From the NCBI GenBank assembly GCA_029860345.1, contig JAOUBJ010000004.1:1-64000 (forward strand): a stretch of 64,000 nucleotides of DNA. Direction: 5' to 3'. The notes under the pieces are model-generated. The model was not told the DNA's origin and did not search any database. It was given only the letters and a program-made list of their open reading frames with translations. Every line of letters starts with the position of its first letter. The first letter of the stretch is position 1. Position numbers and translations under genes: made by a program. Shown here piece after piece: positions 2,191 through 26,104 of the stretch. The DNA is from Candidatus Zixiibacteriota bacterium (GTDB taxonomy: Bacteria; Zixibacteria; MSB-5A5; GN15; FEB-12).

Positions 2191-4848
2191 GTGGCCGACC
2201 AAGAACCTGATGACAACACCCGCACCCACGTGGTCCTGACTCAGGGCACGATGGTTTCACACTACCGCATAGTCGAGAAGATCGGCGCCGGTGGCATGGG
2301 TGAAGTATATCTGGCTGAGGACAGCAAGCTGTCTCGTAATGTTGCACTTAAGTTTCTGCCAACACACTTGTGTCAGGATGAAGACAGTCGCACTCGGTTT
2401 ACTCGTGAAGCCAAAGCGGCGGCCAAACTCGATCATCCGAATATCGTCCCGGTCTACGAAGTTGGGGAGTTTCAGGGACGTCCGTTTTTTGCCATGGCCC
2501 ACATCGGAGGCGAGCCACTTCGCGAAATCACGAAAGCTGGTAAGCTCACGGTTGCTGAGGCTGTTGGCCTGACTATGCAAATCTGCGAAGGTCTCCACGA
2601 GGCCCACGATGCAGGGATCGTTCACCGGGATATCAAGCCGGGCAATATCATCATAGACACGAAGGGCAAACCCCGCCTGCTGGATTTTGGGTTGGCGACG
2701 GTTACAGGGGAGGAGAAACTGACCAAGACCGGCTCTACCCTTGGAACCGTTGGGTACATGGCGCCGGAACAGATATCCGGCGGGAAAATTGATAAACGGT
2801 CAGACCTATTTTCCCTCGGCGTGATTCTGTACGAGATGTTGACCGGTCGTCGTCCTTTCGAAGGGGACAACGATGCCGCCGTTATCAGCGCGATAACAAC
2901 GTCGACTCCGGAACCGATCGCCCGATTCAAATCCGGCGTGACTGGGGAGTTGCAACAGGTAATCAACAAGGCACTGGCCAAGGACCCATCGCTCAGATAC
3001 CAACATGCCGACGGAATGCTGGCCGACCTGAGGAGATTAACCGTTGAGACAGCCCCGCCCAGGAAAAACCGTTTTGCATTGTGGGCAGCCGCTGCACTTG
3101 TTTTGATCATTGGGGGATACTTCATTGCAGTCTTAATGAAGGAACCCAAAACTGTAGCCGTAACTGAGCTACCCGTTTTGATTGTGTTGCCATTTGAGAA
3201 TCTTGGTTCAGATACGGATGAGTATTTCTCCGATGGTATCCGGCATGAAATCTGGTCACGACTATCAACTGTTAACGGCATACGAGTGATTTCGCCAAGA
3301 AGTGCTGACCAATATAAAGAAACCGACAAGAGCGCAGAACAGATCGGCCAGGAAACGGGCGCCGACTATATCCTTGAAGCTGCCATTCGATGGGATAAAT
3401 CCGGCGAAGTTGACCTTATTCGCATGACGCCGAGGTTAACCAAGACCAGTGATAACTACCTAATGTGGTCGGATAACTATCAACAAGTGCTCCTACAGAT
3501 CTTTGAAGTTCAATCAAAGATAGCTGATCAAATCGTGATCGCCTTGGGATTGACACTGGTGGAAACCGGAAAGTTGGCCCCCGATGGGGCCCCGACAACC
3601 AATATGGCGGCCTACAATTTCTACCTGCGTGGTCTTGAGATTTCCAGTCATACCTTTACGTTGTCTGATTTTAATAGTGCTATCGAAATGTTTGACTCGG
3701 CCATAGCTTTGGATTCAAGTTTCGCTTTGGCCTGGGCACAAAAATCTATTAATCATTCCACGTTTAATTTCTTTTTCACGACCGTGGACGTTAAACATCA
3801 TAAAAGAGAAGCTCTAAGAGCCGCCGAGAAAGCCATGGAGCTTGACCCGATCCTGCCGTCAGCGAATATCGCGATGGGAACCTACCATAATTATGTTAAG
3901 AGAGATTATGATAATGCACTGGCATCATTATATGCAGCCAAATCCGAAGTTGTCAGCAATGCTGATCTTTCCGAGGCCATTGGAGTTGTTAAGATGCGCC
4001 AGGGAGAGTGGCAGGAAGCTCTATTGCTATTTGAAGAGGCGACTCGGATTGATCCTCTGAACCATCGAAGGTATTATTACCTGGCTAACGACCTGAGTAT
4101 GATACGTGATTACGAGTTGGCTGATAAGTATATAGCTCGAGCCCTTGTTCTGGATCCGAGTAATCCGGATGCCGCTTACATGAAGATCTTTGTAGATCTG
4201 CTCCATCATGGCACGGTTGATGTTGAGGGGAATTCATTCAAGAAACTGGTCACTGATGTCGGGTTGGCAGAGATATCAACCTATGAACTCACATCGGCGA
4301 CATCCCTCGGTTTGTGGCGCTTCATCATCGACCGCATTGATCCCCAAGAGGCACTGGAAAATGTTCGTCGGGTCGGGGATATCCGAGGTACCATCACCGA
4401 AAGAACACCACACCGCGTACAGTTGAACATTGCCCAGATATTTGACCTAACCGGACAGCATGATTCGGCCCAAATCCATTATGACTCATCACGGATTATT
4501 CTAAGTAGTATTATCGATCTGGGTGATTTTCAATTTCATGCTTACGCTGAGCTCGGGCTGACATACGCGCTGATGGGCAGTAAAGAGGAGGCGATTGAAG
4601 CCGGCAAAAAAGCCAAAGAGTTGATGTCCGTTGACGACTGCCATTGGTGAGGACCGGACGCGGTCATGGTCATGGCCCAGATTTACTCTATCGTCGGCGA
4701 GTACGACTTGGCTATCGATGAATTGGAATACGTGTTGTCGATTCCTTCGTGGTGTACACCCGCGCTGCTGAGAGCGGACCCCATTTTTGCCCCCATGCAA
4801 GAATTGCCCCGCTTTGTAGCCTTGCTTGAGAAGTATGATTCGAAATGA
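2191..4848 (+). CDS. transmembrane Ser/Thr kinase with TolB-like and TPR domains; candidate selenoprotein (in-frame TGA 4648-4650)
   Basis: Predicted sensor kinase of 885 residues if the TGA is decoded. The N-terminal PknB-type kinase shows GAGGMGEVYLA (32-42), Lys54 in VALK, HRDIKPGN (145-152), DFG at 165 and an APEQ segment. One transmembrane helix follows at about 292-313. Outside it come a TolB/FlgO-like segment (VLPFENLGSDTDEYFSDGI) and TPR repeats. I chose the GTG start because GAGGAG precedes it and the N-terminus aligns with the next gene. After DDCHW the frame meets TGA at 4648, then continues for 65 codons (GPDAVMVMAQIY..., SIPSW..., LEKYDSK), which is the usual last TPR and tail of this family. 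The final TGA overlaps the next gene's ATG as ATGA. If TGA stops, the product is 819 residues and lacks its tail. Confidence 0.8.
4662..4677 (+). promoter_or_regulatory. candidate bacterial SECIS hairpin of the first kinase gene
   Basis: Stem GGTCAT (4662-4667) pairs with ATGGCC (4672-4677), six pairs including one G-U wobble, closing a GGUC loop (4668-4671). Seventeen nucleotides separate the TGA from the loop, within the 16-37 nt range described for bacterial SECIS elements. The loop begins with G, as in E. coli fdhF, whose loop is GGUCU. The same hairpin recurs in the paralogue downstream. Confidence 0.6.
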
Positions 4849-7475
4849 CAGACCATAACGACGACAACACCCGCACCCATGTCGTGCTAACCAAAGGCGC
4901 GATGGTGTCGCACTACCGGATTGTCGAGAAGATCGGCGCCGGTGGCATGGGTGAGGTCTATCTGGCCGAAGATACTAAGCTCAAACGCAAAGTTGCCCTC
5001 AAGTTTCTCCCTTCCCATCTGATCTCGAATGCAGAGGTCCGCACCCGCTTTGTGCGGGAAGCCCAAACAGTAGCCAAACTAAACCATCCAAATGTTATCA
5101 GTATCTATGAAGTCAGCGAACTCAGTGGACGCCCCTACTACGTGATGGAACTGGTCGAAGGGGAGACTCTTGAGGAGATCGTTCAGGGAAAGACTCTTCC
5201 GTTTGATGTCATCACTGAGTACGCCATTCAGATCTGCCAGGGGCTGGGAGAGGCGCACCGAGCATCGATCGTGCATCGCGATATCAAAGCGGCCAATATC
5301 GCCGTTGATACACAGGGTCGTGTCCGAGTTCTTGATTTTGGCCTGGCCGCCACGGCAGGCGATGAAAAACTGACCAAGACCGGATCGACGCTCGGCACGG
5401 TCGCCTATATGTCGCCCGAACAGGTATCGGGACGTGACATCGATCATCGCTCCGATCTATTTTCACTCGGAGTCGTGCTTTACGAGTTAATAGCCGGACA
5501 GACTCCATTCAAACGGGACAACGAAGGTGCTACTCTCAAAGCGATCATCGAAGACAACCCGGAGCCGTTGACTCGGTACAAGTCGGACGTTCCGGAGAAG
5601 CTCCAAGAAATAGTATTCAAGCTGCTGGAAAAGGACAGAGAACTGAGGTACCAGTCAGCCGAAGGTGTCATCGCCGATCTCAAGCGTCTCATGTACGACT
5701 CGCAGCAGACCGGTTACACACGAATGGCCAGGCGATCAGGCAAAACACCGACCGTAGTCGGTGTCACGGCTGTTCTGATGGTAGTGGCGGCTGCGCTGCT
5801 TTACTTTCAGTTTAGACCAGTCGGTGACGGGTCGCATTCGGACGATGCGGTTCCAATGATCGCCGTGCTGCCGTTCGAGAACCTTGGTTCGCCCGAAGAT
5901 GACTATTTCGCAGATGGCATAACCGAAGAGATAACTTCACGCCTGGCCATGATCAAGGGGCTGGGAGTAATCTCGCGCATGAGTTCTGTGAAACTCAGAG
6001 AGAGCCATAAGACTCTTCAGGAAATCGGTCGCGACCATGGGATCGATTATGTGCTTGAGGGTACGGTTCGCTGGAGCAAGGTGGGCGACCAGTTGAAAGT
6101 TCGGATCACACCACAATTGATTCAGGTATCGGATGACCGGCATCTTTGGGCAAGCAACTACGAACGCACCTTGATGGAAGTGTTCGCGGTCCAGGCTGAT
6201 ATTGCAGAGAAGATAGTCGATCAACTCGGACTGACCCTGCTTGAATCCGATCGTCAGAATCTCGCCAGCATACCGACCGACAATCCTGAAGCATACAAGT
6301 TCTATCTCCAAGCACTACAACATGTGAGACGCAGTACCGGATATTCAGACTCTAAGGGCGCTCAGACTGCTCTCGATAGTGCCGTAATTCTTGACTCATC
6401 TTTCGCATTGGCTCACGCCCTGCGATCAGAGTCTTATACCAACGTTGCCGGCGGTCTACCTGAAACAGAGAATGGCAAAACGGCGCTCGAAGCGGCTGAA
6501 CGAGCACTGGAGCTTCAGCCCGGACTTTCGCAGGGTCACCTGGCCCTGGGCAGATACTACTACTTCGTTGCCGCCGATAACGAAAAGGCTCTTGAGCACT
6601 TTTCGAGGGCCAAATCTGAACTCTATAACGACCCCGAACTGCTCAATGCGATCTCAAACGTGCAGATAGAACAGAACTACCTCGAAGAGGCATTGGTTAA
6701 TCGTAGCAAAGCGGCTGACCTCGACCCTCTAAACCCCAGAAGACACTCCAATCTGGCTAGAGTACTGCGATCCCTGCGCAGATTCAGTGAAGCTGAACAG
6801 TCAATTAATCGCGCCATAGCTTTGAATCCGGAAGCTCAATACTATTACGAGTCAAAGATCGAAGGCCTGATAGCACAATACGGCGATATAGAGAGAATAA
6901 AGCCGGTTGTAAACGAAGCACTCGAGTATTGTGATACATCCAAGTTCGTCATCAAAAACTCAGCATGGACGAGATTCATCCCTGACCTTAAAACTGATTC
7001 GGTCATTGCAGGTTTCTTCCAGATGGAAGTTGAGGATACTTCCAAGGGAGGCATGTTTCCAGAACTATCCTCGTATGGTCTAGGTCATCTTGACATGCTT
7101 GAAAACAAGCCTGAAGAAGCAAGAAAACGAGCCGGAGGATTCGACGGTACGTTCGACGGGTGGCAAGGACTACTTCTCTCTTTCGCCGGAGATTGTGAAC
7201 AGGCGATTGAAGCCGGTTTAAGAGACAAGGAGTTGGTCGAAACCACCGACTGCTCCCCCTGACATTCGGTCGAGGGTACGGCCATGGTCATGGCCAGAAT
7301 ATACGCTAACTGCGAAAAGTACGACGAAGCAATCGATGAACTTGAATTAGTGCTTTCTCTGGAGACGTATATTACAGCGAACACCCTGAAACTCAAACAT
7401 TGGATCGACCCCCTCCGCGACCACCCGCGCTATCAAGAGCTTATCGCCAAGTATGCTCTCCCCGAAGCGATGTAG
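4845..7475 (+). CDS. transmembrane Ser/Thr kinase with TolB-like and TPR domains; second candidate selenoprotein (in-frame TGA 7260-7262)
   Basis: This is a tandem paralogue of the preceding gene (876 residues with readthrough). It has the same order: GAGGMGEVYLA loop, Lys53 in VALK, HRDIKAAN (144-151), DFG, a transmembrane helix (VVGVTAVLMVVAAALLYF), a TolB-like segment (IAVLPFENLGSPEDDYFADG) and TPRs. After TTDCSP the frame meets TGA at 7260, then reads HSVEGTAMVMARIYANCEKY and on to LRDHPRYQELIAKY, the conserved C-terminus of the family. Both paralogues therefore carry Cys-x-x-TGA (CHWU, CSPU) at the same TPR helix junction. The start is ATG in the ATGA overlap with the readthrough stop of the previous gene, which suggests translational coupling and a common operon. 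If TGA is a real stop, the product is 805 residues. Confidence 0.8.
7280..7295 (+). promoter_or_regulatory. candidate bacterial SECIS hairpin of the second kinase gene
   Basis: GGCCAT (7280-7285) pairs perfectly with ATGGCC (7290-7295) around a GGUC loop (7286-7289). Twenty-three nucleotides lie between the TGA and the loop. Compared with the upstream paralogue, one stem position changes from a G-U to a G-C pair, so pairing is kept. The loop is identical. Confidence 0.62.
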
Positions 7476-10072: not shown

Positions 10073-10291
10073 CTTGGGCTCCTGGGTATCGAGTTACTCT
10101 GCGTTGACTCACGCTGTGGTGCAATACTCTGCTTATAACATAGATAAATAAGTCTATTAGTCAAGTGGTTTTCGGCGCGGGTCCGAGTGACAAAGAGTCA
10201 AACAACGTAGTTTGCCCAGCCGTATAAAAGGGATGTAACAAGTCTATGATATAACATAATTGTCGACCCCTCAAGGGGAAAGGAAACTGCC

Positions 10292-12334: not shown

Positions 12335-12815
12335 TTGTACTCCTCTTTTGATAGCAAGGCGCGAGCGCCCCGCTGCCTGTAACGATCTGTTTATAAGCGA
12401 TACGCAGACAGTCGCAAAAACGCAAAGAATAGGTCAATTTTGTCTATATTTTCCCGGCGGGATACTGGTGTTCGCACCTCCGCCTGATCACGGGTGGCCC
12501 ACCCCGCCTTAGGCGGGGCTGTGGGATTTGTCGATGATGTCGAAATCCGCCCTTCGACTGCGCTCAGGACGACACGGTCAAGCCGTGTTTCTCACCTCTC
12601 GGGTCACGGGTCTCGACCAACCATCGAATCTGCCAGAAGGTGACCCCCCTCTTGGTCACAATTACTGATTTGCAAGATGGACTAAATCGAACCATTTTTG
12701 TAAAAGTGTGTTGTAGAAATATGAACTGAAGACGGAGGAAATATGGCTGAGCGATTCTTGCAGGGCTGTGCGCTTTGTGTTTTGAAATGTGAAAGTGATC
12801 ATAAGGGGATTTTGG
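12335..12815. other. gene-free divergent region with GC hairpin
   Basis: This holds the promoters of the AhpD-like gene (minus) and the kinase at 12816 (plus). A perfect hairpin CCCCGCC-TTA-GGCGGGG lies at 12502-12518. CCTTCGACTGCGCTCAGGAC near 12553 is a copy of the CCTGAGCGcAGTCGAAGG motif also seen near 15758, 35864, 60526 and 63120. No coding signal is seen. Confidence 0.5.
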
Positions 12816-15494
12816 ATGAGTCTTGAAATTGGACAGAAACTGGGCCCTTACGAGATAATTGAACAGGCCGGCAAAGGTGGGATGGGCGAAGTATATCGGG
12901 CCAGGGACACTCGCCTTGAACGCACCGTAGCCATAAAAATCCTACCGGCCGGTATTGCCGCCAACCCGGAATTCAAAGAGCGATTCGACCGGGAAGCCAA
13001 GGCCATCTCCAGTATGAATCATGCCCATATCTGCACGCTCTATGATATCGGTCAGGAAAACGGTACCAACTATCTGGTTATGGAATTCCTCGAAGGGGAG
13101 ACGCTGGCCGAACGCTTGTCCAAAGGTCCCATACCATACGAGGAGATGCTCCAGATTGCGGTCCAAATAGCAAGCGGTTTGGATTCGGCCCATCAGCAAG
13201 GCTTGATCCATCGAGACCTCAAGCCGGGCAATATCATGCTTACTCAGGAAGGAGCCAAGCTGCTTGATTTCGGCCTGGCTAAGGCCCAGTTTGACAACGG
13301 CTCCCAAGGGATGGCGGCTGTTACCCGCACGACCCCTTTGACCGGAGCGAATACTATTCTTGGCACCATGCAATACATGGCCCCGGAACAGCTCGAAGGG
13401 AAGGAAGCGGATGCTCGCTCGGACATTTTCGCTTTCGGGGCGATCATGTATGAGATGTCAACGGGCAAGAAAGCCTTTGAAGGCAATTCAAGCGCCACAT
13501 TAATAGCTGCCATTATCGAACGGGACCCGGTCTCGATCTCGGTCATCATGCCCATGACTCCGCCCTTGTTTGAACGATTGGTGAAGAAGTGTCTTTCAAA
13601 AGACCCACGCAAGCGCTGGCAATCCGCTTCAGACCTCTCCGATGAACTTCACTGGATTTCCCAGGCCGGGTCACAGGTCGGACTGCCCGCTCACCTGGCC
13701 GCCCGTCGGAAGTTCAAATTTGATCTGGCTCGCGCTATTGGCTTGGGTGCTATAATAAGCACTCTTGTCCTGGCCTATCTGTTTTACGCTGAAAAAACAA
13801 AACCGGCCCCGGAGCTGCCGGTGGCCCGCTACACCGTGAATATCAAGCAGGGACTGACCAACATCTTCTGGCCACGCATTTCACCTGATGGTCAGTCGGT
13901 TGCCTTTCATGCCGATGATTCTACCGGCGCCAACCGTATTTGGATTAGACCGATCAACTCATTGGAAGCCTATCCACTCTTGAATACCGAGGACGCCAAG
14001 CGATTTTTCTGGTCACCTGATGGCAAACACGTCGCCTTTTTTGTCGGCAACCAGTTGAAGCGAATTCCAATTACCGGAGGCCAGGCCCAACTTGTCTGTC
14101 AGGGGCCGTCGGGAGCCGACGGTTGCTGGAGCAGTACTGACTTGATAATATTCGATGGAAGCAGTACTGACACTATGAAAATCGTAGCGGCCGGTGGCGG
14201 TCAGGCACGACCGGCCGCCCTGGCTGATACCGCCATTGGTGACTTTTACTACGCATGGCCCTGGTTTTTGCCCGATGGGGAGCATTTCATCTTTACAGCC
14301 AACGTTCGACGGGATGCTGACAACACCAGACCAAGGAATCGGATAAAACTCGGCTCTGTCGGCTCAACCAGTCCCATCACTCTCTTTGAAATGGATCACA
14401 ATCTCGACCGCATCGAGTACACCAACGAAGGATACATTCTTTTCGTATCCCAGGACAATCTGATGGGCCTGCCTTTCGATGCCGACAAGCTTGAAGTGAC
14501 CGGAGAGCCGAAACCGATTGCGATGAGCGTTGGCACCGCCGATAACACCTATGCCTTCTCAGTCTCCGATAACGGAACGCTCTTGTATCAAACCAACAAC
14601 CAGTCATCGCAGAGCGAACTTGCCTGGATCGACAGAGCCGGCGAGAAAATTGAATCCATCGGTCAATTGGGCAAGTACTTTGACATCGCGCTTTCGCCTG
14701 ATGAATCCAAGGTAGTCTATTCAGCGATCGATGAGGGGTCCAGCGCCACAGATTTATGGATTTATGATCTAAAGCGTAACGTGCCGACCAGATTGACCTT
14801 CGATGCTGCCGATGACGGCAGGCCGCGCTGGAATCCAGACGGAAACACTGTCTACTTTACCACTAACCGCCGTGGACAGTTTTACGAAATCCACCGCAAG
14901 GACGCCAATGGACTTGGCGATGCTGAACTGGTCTATGCCACAGACAGCAGCCATAGCGTTCCGAACGACTTCACGCCTGATGGGACCAGGCTCATTTTCC
15001 GTGAGGTGAACAATAGTTATGACATTGGAATCCTCTCTCTGGCCGACAGCAACCGGATCGGTATGGTGGCCAACAGCTCCTTCTTTGAAGCGATGGGTCG
15101 AGTTTCGCCTAACGGAAAGTACCTGACCTATGTCAGCACGGAGTCGGGCCGACGTGAAGTATATGTCAGGCAGCTTGACGGCACTGGCGGCAAGTGGCAG
15201 ATTTCCACCGACCACGCCATGAATCCCGAGTGGAACGGAGACGGTACCGAGCTGTTTTACCTGACCAATGATAATCAGATCATGGCGGTCAAAGTCGGTA
15301 CCAGTGGGGATTTCGAGGCTGAGAATCCGGTAAGACTGTTTGAACTCAATTTCCAGTATCCCGGCCGGGTTAACTTCCCTTATGATGTATCTGCCGACGG
15401 ACAGAGATTTCTGGTGAATGCCCGACTTTCAGATTCTGACCCCGGCGAAATTGTCGTCGTTCAGAACTGGGCCGAAGAGTTCCGCCAGCACTGA
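12816..15494 (+). CDS. transmembrane Ser/Thr kinase with C-terminal TolB/WD40-like beta-propeller
   Basis: The 892-residue protein starts at ATG 12816 (AAGGGG upstream), so the nine codons before it are excluded. Kinase features: GKGGMGEVYRA loop (19-29), Lys41 in VAIK, HRDLKPGN (132-139), DFG at 151, MAPEQLEGKEADARSD activation/substrate segment, and the RW at the end of the fold. A transmembrane helix follows (IGLGAIISTLVLAYLFYA). The exterior part carries PD40/TolB-type propeller repeats, e.g. PRISPDGQSVAFHADD, FFWSPDGKHVAFF, ALSPDESKVVYSA, RWNPDGNTVYFTT, RVSPNGKYLTYVS. It probably signals an envelope or extracellular cue to cytoplasmic substrates. Same architecture as the gene at 23432-26104. 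No partner gene is adjacent. Confidence 0.93.
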   Translation: MSLEIGQKLGPYEIIEQAGKGGMGEVYRARDTRLERTVAIKILPAGIAANPEFKERFDREAKAISSMNHAHICTLYDIGQENGTNYLVMEFLEGETLAERLSKGPIPYEEMLQIAVQIASGLDSAHQQGLIHRDLKPGNIMLTQEGAKLLDFGLAKAQFDNGSQGMAAVTRTTPLTGANTILGTMQYMAPEQLEGKEADARSDIFAFGAIMYEMSTGKKAFEGNSSATLIAAIIERDPVSISVIMPMTPPLFERLVKKCLSKDPRKRWQSASDLSDELHWISQAGSQVGLPAHLAARRKFKFDLARAIGLGAIISTLVLAYLFYAEKTKPAPELPVARYTVNIKQGLTNIFWPRISPDGQSVAFHADDSTGANRIWIRPINSLEAYPLLNTEDAKRFFWSPDGKHVAFFVGNQLKRIPITGGQAQLVCQGPSGADGCWSSTDLIIFDGSSTDTMKIVAAGGGQARPAALADTAIGDFYYAWPWFLPDGEHFIFTANVRRDADNTRPRNRIKLGSVGSTSPITLFEMDHNLDRIEYTNEGYILFVSQDNLMGLPFDADKLEVTGEPKPIAMSVGTADNTYAFSVSDNGTLLYQTNNQSSQSELAWIDRAGEKIESIGQLGKYFDIALSPDESKVVYSAIDEGSSATDLWIYDLKRNVPTRLTFDAADDGRPRWNPDGNTVYFTTNRRGQFYEIHRKDANGLGDAELVYATDSSHSVPNDFTPDGTRLIFREVNNSYDIGILSLADSNRIGMVANSSFFEAMGRVSPNGKYLTYVSTESGRREVYVRQLDGTGGKWQISTDHAMNPEWNGDGTELFYLTNDNQIMAVKVGTSGDFEAENPVRLFELNFQYPGRVNFPYDVSADGQRFLVNARLSDSDPGEIVVVQNWAEEFRQH

Positions 15495-23431: not shown

Positions 23432-26104
23432 CTATCTGTCTTCCTCGATCAGGCTCGGCCAATTGAGAACGACGTTGAACTTTGGGCTGACTTTCTGATC
23501 CATGGCCGATACCAACAGAAATCTCTGGCCATCGGCACTGACGTCGAAAGGACGGAATCCAAACTTGAGCGTGGACAGCCGGTGCTGGAAAAGTTTGGTG
23601 GGACTGCCTATTTCAACAGAACCGTCGGTCTTAATCGGCACCGACATCATTTCCCACTCACGATTGAAATACAGAATTTCCCCTCCGGCTGGATTCCAAA
23701 CAGCCGACCTAACTCCCGATGTCGAGATCTGCCATTTGCCGCCGGCGCCGTCAAGTTTGAGCAGATACAACTCTGTGATATCGGTTTCTTCGGCTGCGTA
23801 AAGGAGGTATGTGCCATCGGGTGAGAATATCCCCCCATACTCATCCAACGGTGTCTTGATCAGCGGCACCGGTATGGAATCGGTCGCCAGATTCATCATT
23901 TTTATGTCCGGCTGACCCTCGGAGGCACCAGTGAAGCAGTACCTGTTTCCATCTCTTGAAATATCGGTCAGAACGTTGAAGGGTCCCGCCGCCGAGTCCA
24001 AAAGCAGAGATGCTTCCCCGGTACCATTGGCCGGTTTCCAAAAGGGTAGTATTGCCGGTATAGAGCCGTGATTATAGTATACAGTTGAGCCGTCCTGTGA
24101 CCAGAGGGGGGCAAACTCTTCACCCTCTTCAAACGTAAAGCGCGAGCTGACCCCACGCTTTATATCGTGCATCCAGAGGTCGATTGTCTCCGTCTGCGGA
24201 TCTTCAAGTCCAAAGACCAATCTTTGTCCGTCAGTTGCGAGGGCAACATCTCCGTATCTACCCGGTTCACCGATTTTGGCCAGTTCCTTGCCGGTCCGAT
24301 CCACCCAGACCAACTCATTCTTGATAGATGCATCGGAGGTCATATACACCAGGGTGCCTTCATCGGAAACATCGAACGATGAAACAGCCGACTGGGACAG
24401 GCTGGCAATGTTCTCGGCAACTGGAATAGGCTCACCGACAACTTTCAATCCACTGACATCAAACGCCTGAGCCAGCAGTATTTTGTCTTTGACATAGACA
24501 AGGTATCCGGGTTCGCAGTATACAACTCTGGATGTCGTTTTGAACAGATCAACTGTTTCATCTGAGTCTACACGGCCCAGTTTCAAATCGAACGTCGAAG
24601 AACCGAGCGTCGAGTCACTCGCAACGAGAAACAAAAAATGTTTACCGTCCGGCAAAAAGTCCGGCCAGGCGTGATAACGTTCACTTCTCGCCTGGTCCAA
24701 CTGTGAGACGACCACAGCGCTTCCACCTCCTGCTGCAACGGTGTGCAGACTGTCTCTGTCACTGCCGTCAAAGATAATGATTCCATCAGAACCCCAACTT
24801 CCGTCGGCCACCCTTTCAAACTCCCCGACTAACTGAGCGGGTCCACCGTTGATAGGTACTTTCTTGAGCTGATTGCGACCGACCGAGAAAGCAAGGTAGC
24901 GGCTGTCCGGCGACCAGAAAGGCCTCAGCGCCGCCTCGGTACCGTTTAACAGAAAAGACTCGTTGGAGTTTAGCGGTCTGACCCAAACGCCGGACTTTCG
25001 GGCGGCATCGGTCGCCTTAAAGGCGAGATACTTACCATTGGGAGATATCTGTGGCCAGTATATCGATTGGAAATCCTCGCCCGGTGTGATTTCGAACCGG
25101 ATGACGTTTTTGACCGGTTCCGGTTGTGTGTGCCATTTGAAACCATAGAATGCAGCAGTGACAAAAGTCAGCGATGCTACCAGCCAACCGAGTCTGAGCT
25201 TGAACTTTCTACGGGCCGCAACTGGGGCTGGGATACCTGCCTGCGATCCCGATTGAGCCAGCCACCTGAGTTCATCGGCTAAGTCCCGCGCCGACTGCCA
25301 GCGTTTGTCAGGATCCTTCTCCAGGCACTTTCGCACCAGACGGTCAAGCCCGGGAGGAGTCATCGGCACAACCGAAGAAATCGGCGTCGGCGTGCGTTCA
25401 AGAATAGCGGCTATCAGATTGGCCTGACTCTTGCCGTCGAAAGGTCGTGCCCCGGTGACCATTTGGTACAGCACCGCACCAAAAGCAAACACGTCACTGC
25501 GGGCGTCAGCCTCGCTTCCCTCAAGTTGCTCCGGCGCCATGTACTGGATGGTGCCGACTATGGTCCCGGTGCCGGTAAGCGGCGTGGTCTGGGTGATACC
25601 GCTGATACCCTCCACCACGCCACCCGATATCTTCAGCTTGGCCAAACCAAAATCCAGAAGCTTGGCCCCTTCGCGGGTGAGTATAATATTGGCTGGTTTC
25701 AAGTCGCGATGGATCAATCCCTGACCGTGCGCTTTGTCCAGAGCATCGGCGATCTCGGTACCGATTTCGATTGCCTCATTGGTCGGCAGCGGACCTTTCT
25801 TGATCCGCTCGGACAACGTCTCACCTTCGAGGTATTCCATGACCAGATAGTCAAGACCGTTTTCTGAGCCGATGTCGTGGAGGGTACAAATATTGGGATG
25901 GTTCAAGCTGGAGATAGTCTTAGCCTCGCGCTCAAACCGTGCCCGCATGTCTTCGTTCTGAGCCGTGCGCTCCGGCAAAACTTTGATTGCGACAACTCGG
26001 TCCAGGCGCGTGTCTTTGGCTTTGTACACCTCGCCCATCCCGCCGCTGCCGGCCGGCGAGTCGATTTCATACGGACCGAGCTTCTGTCCCGGACTGAGCG
26101 TCAT
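23432..26104 (-). CDS. transmembrane Ser/Thr kinase with C-terminal TolB/WD40-like beta-propeller
   Basis: The 890-residue protein shares the architecture and N-terminus of the kinase at 12816 (both read GQKLGPYEI). Kinase motifs: GSGGMGEVYKA (19-29), Lys41 in VAIK, HRDLKPANI, LLDFGLAK, MAPEQLEGSEADARSD. A transmembrane helix (LGWLVASLTFVTAAFYGF) links to an exterior propeller with PD40/TolB repeats: PQISPNGKYLAFKATD, PFWSPDSRYLAFSVG, LWSQDGSTVYYNHG, IFSPDGTYLLYAAEE, FDVSADGQRFLLVSA. GGAG lies 5 nt before the ATG. It probably couples envelope sensing to phosphorylation. No cognate phosphatase or target is encoded nearby. Confidence 0.93.
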   Translation of the reverse strand: MTLSPGQKLGPYEIDSPAGSGGMGEVYKAKDTRLDRVVAIKVLPERTAQNEDMRARFEREAKTISSLNHPNICTLHDIGSENGLDYLVMEYLEGETLSERIKKGPLPTNEAIEIGTEIADALDKAHGQGLIHRDLKPANIILTREGAKLLDFGLAKLKISGGVVEGISGITQTTPLTGTGTIVGTIQYMAPEQLEGSEADARSDVFAFGAVLYQMVTGARPFDGKSQANLIAAILERTPTPISSVVPMTPPGLDRLVRKCLEKDPDKRWQSARDLADELRWLAQSGSQAGIPAPVAARRKFKLRLGWLVASLTFVTAAFYGFKWHTQPEPVKNVIRFEITPGEDFQSIYWPQISPNGKYLAFKATDAARKSGVWVRPLNSNESFLLNGTEAALRPFWSPDSRYLAFSVGRNQLKKVPINGGPAQLVGEFERVADGSWGSDGIIIFDGSDRDSLHTVAAGGGSAVVVSQLDQARSERYHAWPDFLPDGKHFLFLVASDSTLGSSTFDLKLGRVDSDETVDLFKTTSRVVYCEPGYLVYVKDKILLAQAFDVSGLKVVGEPIPVAENIASLSQSAVSSFDVSDEGTLVYMTSDASIKNELVWVDRTGKELAKIGEPGRYGDVALATDGQRLVFGLEDPQTETIDLWMHDIKRGVSSRFTFEEGEEFAPLWSQDGSTVYYNHGSIPAILPFWKPANGTGEASLLLDSAAGPFNVLTDISRDGNRYCFTGASEGQPDIKMMNLATDSIPVPLIKTPLDEYGGIFSPDGTYLLYAAEETDITELYLLKLDGAGGKWQISTSGVRSAVWNPAGGEILYFNREWEMMSVPIKTDGSVEIGSPTKLFQHRLSTLKFGFRPFDVSADGQRFLLVSAMDQKVSPKFNVVLNWPSLIEEDR

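Follow-up and report, generated by a model that had tools for sequence, protein, structure and literature searches.

Selenocysteine very probably encoded by in-frame UGA codons in the sensor half of tandem receptor-like kinases from a Zixibacterial genome

Whether an in-frame TGA codon towards the 3' end of a Ser/Thr kinase gene terminates the protein or is read as selenocysteine (Sec) is the question raised by the beginning of the window, the whole analysed stretch of 64,000 nucleotides from a Candidatus Zixiibacteriota bacterium. Kinase gene 1 (2191–4848, on the forward strand as are the features of genes 1 and 2 described below), when read through this codon, encodes a protein of 885 amino acids with a PknB-like Ser/Thr kinase, a transmembrane (TM) helix, a candidate TolB-like domain and a TPR array, its frame running ...MSVDDCHW-TGA(4648–4650)-GPDAVMVMAQIYSIVGEYDLAIDELEYVLSIPSW...LEKYDSK-TGA(4846–4848). 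Re-reading of the frame 2191–4848 bears out what a preliminary description had noticed, namely the in-frame TGA at 4648–4650, the 65 codons which separate it from the TGA at 4846–4848 and the ATGA overlap, in which the closing TGA shares bases with the ATG (4845–4847) of the following gene. The codon completes a C-H-W-U motif (4639–4650). That following gene, kinase gene 2 (4845–7475), is a tandem paralogue with 42% identity and carries a second in-frame TGA (7260–7262), absent from the preliminary description, at the position homologous to that of gene 1; its frame, DCSP-TGA-HSVEGTAMVMA followed by 70 codons up to the TAG at 7473–7475, yields a C-S-P-U motif (7251–7262) and, upon read-through, a protein of 876 amino acids.

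The 65 codons 3' of the TGA of gene 1 (4651–4845) had been taken for the family's normal last TPR and tail, and they indeed match the NCBIfam model TPR_END_plus (NF047558) with 42.6 bits versus a cut-off of 32, so that read-through gives the protein its normal end; the continuation of gene 2 reaches 31.0 bits against the same cut-off. The open frame on its own was discarded as proof, as unrelated frames of the window are equally long: in 6 of the 34 long frames, kinase genes 1 and 2 included, the stop is followed by an open stretch of at least 60 codons. What goes beyond chance is conservation, as judged from the sequences of 29 family members which have the C-x-x-TGA and the homologous continuation in common. 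After the TGA, dN is well below dS in unsaturated pairs of members (0.06/0.49, 0.10/0.37, 0.17/0.93 and 0.19/0.92), similar to the stretch before the TGA, a pattern by which the codons 3' of the TGA are seen to be under purifying selection.

Those members were retrieved with a search profile built from the C-terminal ends of genes 1 and 2, in which U was read as C. The source genome (4.76 Mb, 99.3% complete) harbours five TGA-bearing kinase genes and one sense paralogue with NAVV at the four motif positions, while among 132 genomes of the Zixibacteria phylum and 245 genomes of a second phylum 29 distinct TGA-bearing members were found in 22 genomes of Zixibacteria and Neomarinimicrobiota. The comparison of homologues which the preliminary description had proposed thus finds many homologues with TGA at the same codon, with C at position −3 and TGA at position 0 in 29/29 members; the commonest form is CHW-TGA-GP, while some members have Phe, Tyr or Ser in place of the motif His. 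Two candidates were rejected, as the sole TGA of one (L040) is its terminal stop and the other (L068) has no TGA at the motif site. Distribution in a third phylum, Calditrichaeota, was equally discarded, since the sequence in question (L054) is that of L061, from a genome of the source organism's own family; the public record, QQUK01000155.1, is titled Calditrichaeota, a label which looks wrong.

The 42 sense homologues, from two phyla, mostly read S-x-D-A-x-x-G. Cys occupies the Sec position in none of the 42 and the partner Cys of the motif is equally absent from all of them, from which it follows that Cys and Sec come together; as the profile read U as C, a Cys replacement would have been favoured by the search, yet none was seen. 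In an unrooted tree of 69 relatives, calculated from 589 columns with exclusion of the motif and the hairpin-coding columns, a single branch with SH-aLRT support of 98 separates all 27 Sec rows from the sense homologues.

Downstream of each TGA of the window, as in all members, a hairpin can be formed that resembles a bacterial SECIS element, GGTCAT-GGTC-ATGGCC in gene 1 (4662–4677), 11 nt 3' of the TGA, and GGCCAT-GGTC-ATGGCC in gene 2 (7280–7295), 17 nt 3' of the TGA. The position just 3' of the UGA and the G-bearing apical loop are those of bacterial SECIS elements, and in Escherichia coli fdhF, taken for comparison, the hairpin likewise starts 11 nt after the TGA and has GGTC in its loop; the pattern common to the family is not followed by gene 2, either in its CSPU motif or in its TGA-hairpin spacing. 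Among 23 distinct sequences, with gene 2 aligned after removal of six spacer bases, the stem positions pair in 98.6% of cells, the outer pair appearing as G-C, A-U, G-U or U-A and the third pair as U-G, U-A or C-G, and pairing drops to at most 63% once the partner is slid by one to three columns as a control on the alignment. Codon choice follows the hairpin, with GTC for Val +5 in 23/23 and for Val +7 in 19/20 sequences, compared with 26% GTC among the upstream Val codons of the same genes. An Rfam scan of the TGA region returned no family at its cut-off. Variation around this pattern was seen in L088 (TGA at 10151), in which VQVLA instead of VMVMA follows the TGA and which has different bases, a hairpin with a GG loop being still possible when paired by eye. 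The Gly codon directly after the TGA is GGA in 20/22 cases, and in the window (4651–4665) the GACC within the GGACC that follows the TGA can pair with the GGTC of the 5' arm of the hairpin, which suggests a possible structure competing with the hairpin.

A search for selA, selB, selC and selD had been recommended, and all four were found in the source genome: selB and selA adjoin on contig C6, a tRNA-Sec with anticodon UCA is present, and selD (C24:6940–7866, L096) itself contains one in-frame TGA. SelD of this organism is thus probably a selenoprotein in its own right, and with its own in-frame TGA the gene serves as a built-in positive control. A selA match was obtained in 16/16 Zixibacterial genomes with a TGA-bearing member, and it lies below the cut-off in G020 alone, where the gene is a fragment cut by the edge of its contig; among the Neomarinimicrobial genomes that were checked, selB exceeds the cut-off in G133 and is matched in part in G132. 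The tRNA-Sec was detected in 18/22 member genomes and not found in the remaining four, all draft assemblies with selA or selB. Because most relatives possess Sec machinery, its presence is necessary but not discriminating, and it was set aside as a discriminator; G033, for instance, has selA with no Sec member found. UGA otherwise acts as an ordinary stop, as 17 of the 34 long frames of the window end in TGA, gene 1 among them.

With TGA at the same codon in homologues, a covarying hairpin of the bacterial SECIS type, a full set of Sec machinery, constraint after the TGA and UGA not reassigned, the CxxU selenoprotein proposed at the outset is well supported, and the TGA is very probably decoded as Sec in the sensor half of both window kinases. 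The combination named beforehand as speaking against it, sense codons other than Cys or Sec in homologues together with a genome devoid of Sec machinery, is not what was encountered: the machinery is present, and such sense homologues occur only across the well supported branch, where the partner Cys is absent too.

What kind of protein carries the motif? Pfam recognizes a protein kinase domain in both products, with PF00069 at E 5e-51 in gene 1 (residues 25–271, 2263–3003) and at E 4e-53 in gene 2, in addition to TPRs, and the predicted kinase domain is nearest to PknB. The Gly-rich loop, catalytic Lys, HRD and DFG elements of Hanks-type kinases are all recognizable, the Gly loop, Lys54, Asp147 and DFG165 being invariant among 18 full-length members; judged by these motifs, the kinase domain appears catalytically intact. 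An AlphaFold2 model of the gene 1 product based on 18 sequences (mean pLDDT 82.6, pTM 0.63) places a helix at residues 296–315, where the protein has its one strongly hydrophobic segment, and this helix is predicted to be the single TM helix (residues about 296–315, 3076–3135). As in receptor-like kinases, this single helix lies between kinase and sensor. It is followed in the model by a mixed α/β domain, TolB-like on our own reading of the model as no Pfam match names it, and then by a TPR solenoid. CxxU (residues 817–820) forms the loop directly before helix 821–835, with which the last repeat begins, in a block with a pLDDT of 92. C-terminal to the TM helix, the only Cys or Sec residues of kinase 1 are Cys817, Sec820 and Cys855, of which Cys855 is not conserved, so that no thiol/selenol pair other than CxxU is conserved outside the membrane. 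As there is a single TM helix and the kinase is taken to be cytoplasmic, the side of CxxU should be extracytoplasmic.

The preliminary description had assigned the Sec to a kinase, which holds for genes 1 and 2; however, the label is too narrow, as the module is found behind a class III cyclase domain or a hydrophobic N-terminus without kinase as well. Two Neomarinimicrobial members were read at full length. In L057, the place of the kinase is taken by an adenylate/guanylate cyclase domain (PF00211, E 5e-16), whereas L058 starts with a hydrophobic region and lacks a kinase; both retain the CxxU-TPR part. Conserved across different outputs, this part is best read as input, and on the basis of its sequence context it looks like a portable input module.

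The following sequence of events can be envisaged. UGA would be read by SelB and tRNA-Sec, aided by the hairpin that starts 11 nt downstream, to give a receptor-like kinase with a PknB-like kinase in the cytoplasm, one TM helix and the TolB-like domain and TPR array presumably outside. Upon encounter with extracytoplasmic oxidants or thiols, the Cys-x-x-Sec pair may form or break a selenylsulfide, which would shift the end of the TPR array, and this shift could be relayed via the TM helix to the kinase or, in the relative, the cyclase. The occurrence of the same module before other outputs, including the class III cyclase, would make it an exchangeable input device. We regard this full redox-sensor mechanism of the Cys-x-x-Sec module as rather probable; that it is a sensory module with Sec and no Cys alternative, an extracytoplasmic CxxU switch in a TPR array restricted to one branch of the family, with active protein kinases and a class III cyclase as interchangeable outputs in two phyla, we hold to have a slightly better than even chance.

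Alternatively, Sec is inserted, but Cys-His-Trp-Sec binds a soft metal or metalloid such as Hg, Cu, As or Se species, and the protein would be a metal sensor and not a redox sensor. The strict co-occurrence of C and U with a His or aromatic residue in between agrees with such a site, as does the known presence of Sec in metal-related proteins, among them mercuric transport proteins, the MerB-like SaoL and metal-binding entries (PMC13188914). Nevertheless, the motif His, replaced as it is in some members, is not an invariant ligand and no metal-handling genes stood out among the neighbours, which leaves the metal site unlikely. Still less probable is a switch that reports selenium supply through the kinase output, with the full-length protein made when selenium is present and a protein cut before the last TPR when it is absent: termination would take off precisely the last TPR and the tail, but such a switch has no need for the Cys at −3, which is conserved with Sec in every member. 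That CxxU is the active site of an enzyme, a thiol oxidoreductase or peroxidase tethered to the kinase and not its sensor, is quite improbable, although CxxU is typical of redox-active selenoproteins (PMC13188914), as the motif is embedded in a TPR solenoid and not in a thioredoxin-like fold in the AlphaFold2 model and travels with signalling output domains.

Far less room is left for readings that dispense with Sec. A plain stop with termination and reinitiation at the ATG at 4666 to produce a separate peptide of 60 amino acids could draw on the ATG codons within the hairpin, 15 nt 3' of the TGA, and on a GAGGA overlapping the stop, by its sequence a possible weak ribosome site. A plain stop would, however, permit TAA or TAG at this codon, seen in 0/29 members, and would account neither for the C-x-W before the stop, (near-)invariant in TGA members only, nor for the conservation of the hairpin at synonymous sites; together with the single continuous frame of the sense homologues and the Sec machinery of the genome this makes reinitiation highly improbable. 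For a code in which UGA stands for Trp or Gly throughout the genome nothing was found in favour, and it is ruled out for practical purposes by the ordinary UGA stops, that of gene 1 included, and by the UGA-reading tRNA found being tRNA-Sec.

Selenoprotein O (SelO) is a pseudokinase that AMPylates proteins. It resembles the Sec-containing kinases described here in its kinase-like fold and in having its Sec close to the C-terminal end (PMC13188914, PMC12409994), but lacks the catalytic Asp that the present kinases have, whose Sec is located in a TPR sensor across the membrane helix, far from the kinase domain; a Pfam scan of the kinases gave no match to the SelO domain PF02696. Receptor kinases of the PknB/Stk1 type share the PknB-like kinase domain, the one TM helix and an outside sensor, which consists of PASTA domains there and of the predicted TolB-like domain and TPRs with CxxU here; the PASTA kinase model NF033483 scores 328 bits versus a cut-off of 450 and no PASTA domain was found in the Pfam scan. 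In actinobacterial PknG, too, a Ser/Thr kinase is combined with a redox-type domain and with C-terminal TPRs through which detection of the signal is coupled to output (PMC8546545), but PknG is soluble, and a metal-binding rubredoxin-like domain at the N-terminus serves as its redox element, no Sec being present there or in the TPR part. With a TM helix and without a rubredoxin-like domain in the Pfam scan, the present proteins do not have the PknG architecture.

UGA-encoded Sec in CxxU and a bacterial SECIS are shared with the CxxU redox selenoproteins such as SelW-like, AhpD-like and GrdA proteins, most of them redox enzymes or else small proteins with a redox role, whereas here the motif is part of a signalling sensor and surrounded in the model by a helical TPR solenoid in place of a thioredoxin-like fold. 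Those proteins usually have Cys homologues (PMC12013277), while no Cys form of the kinase module was found. The TPR end-of-group proteins (NF047558) possess the same C-terminal domain, starting right after the UGA; most of these relatives have S-x-D-A-x-x-G in sense codons, and Sec is confined to one branch.

Almost all prokaryotic selenoproteins known to date serve, to our knowledge, in redox chemistry or in the handling of metals. The preliminary description knew of no selenoprotein kinase, and the latest inventory found, of 2026 and with 119 prokaryotic selenoprotein families and subfamilies agrees, as it lists no Ser/Thr kinase, cyclase or TPR protein and, as sole kinase-like entry, the SelO-like pseudokinase (PMC13188914, Table 1). 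The open-access literature yielded nothing relevant on selenoprotein kinases with TPRs or in Zixibacteria, although mention elsewhere is possible, and none of the matched models of NCBIfam release 20 names such a selenoprotein. Selenoproteins, Hanks kinases and TPR sensors all have precedents when taken singly; their combination, in which a receptor-like kinase carries Sec in its sensor, appears to be new. Discovery by Sec/Cys pairs presupposes a Cys homologue for nearly every selenoprotein (PMC12013277) and would miss this kinase family, for which no Cys relatives were found; standard gene calling stops each such gene at the UGA. If receptor-like kinases, and a relative fused to a cyclase, have Sec in their sensors, a signalling pathway would start with selenium chemistry, and no transmembrane receptor would have been known as a selenoprotein before these; the use of Sec by bacteria as a reversible signalling switch becomes directly testable.

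No relatives were found on viral contigs, and no conserved gene neighbourhood beyond arrays of paralogous kinases was detected. Two further kinase genes of the window (12789–15494 and 23432–26104) have C-terminal repeats resembling a TolB-type propeller and no in-frame TGA. On contig C4 of the source genome (197000–216500; L093:2262–18734), at least seven kinase genes of the type of genes 1 and 2 are arranged on one strand, two of which carry a Sec codon, and the junction of these two shares one base, as in the window.
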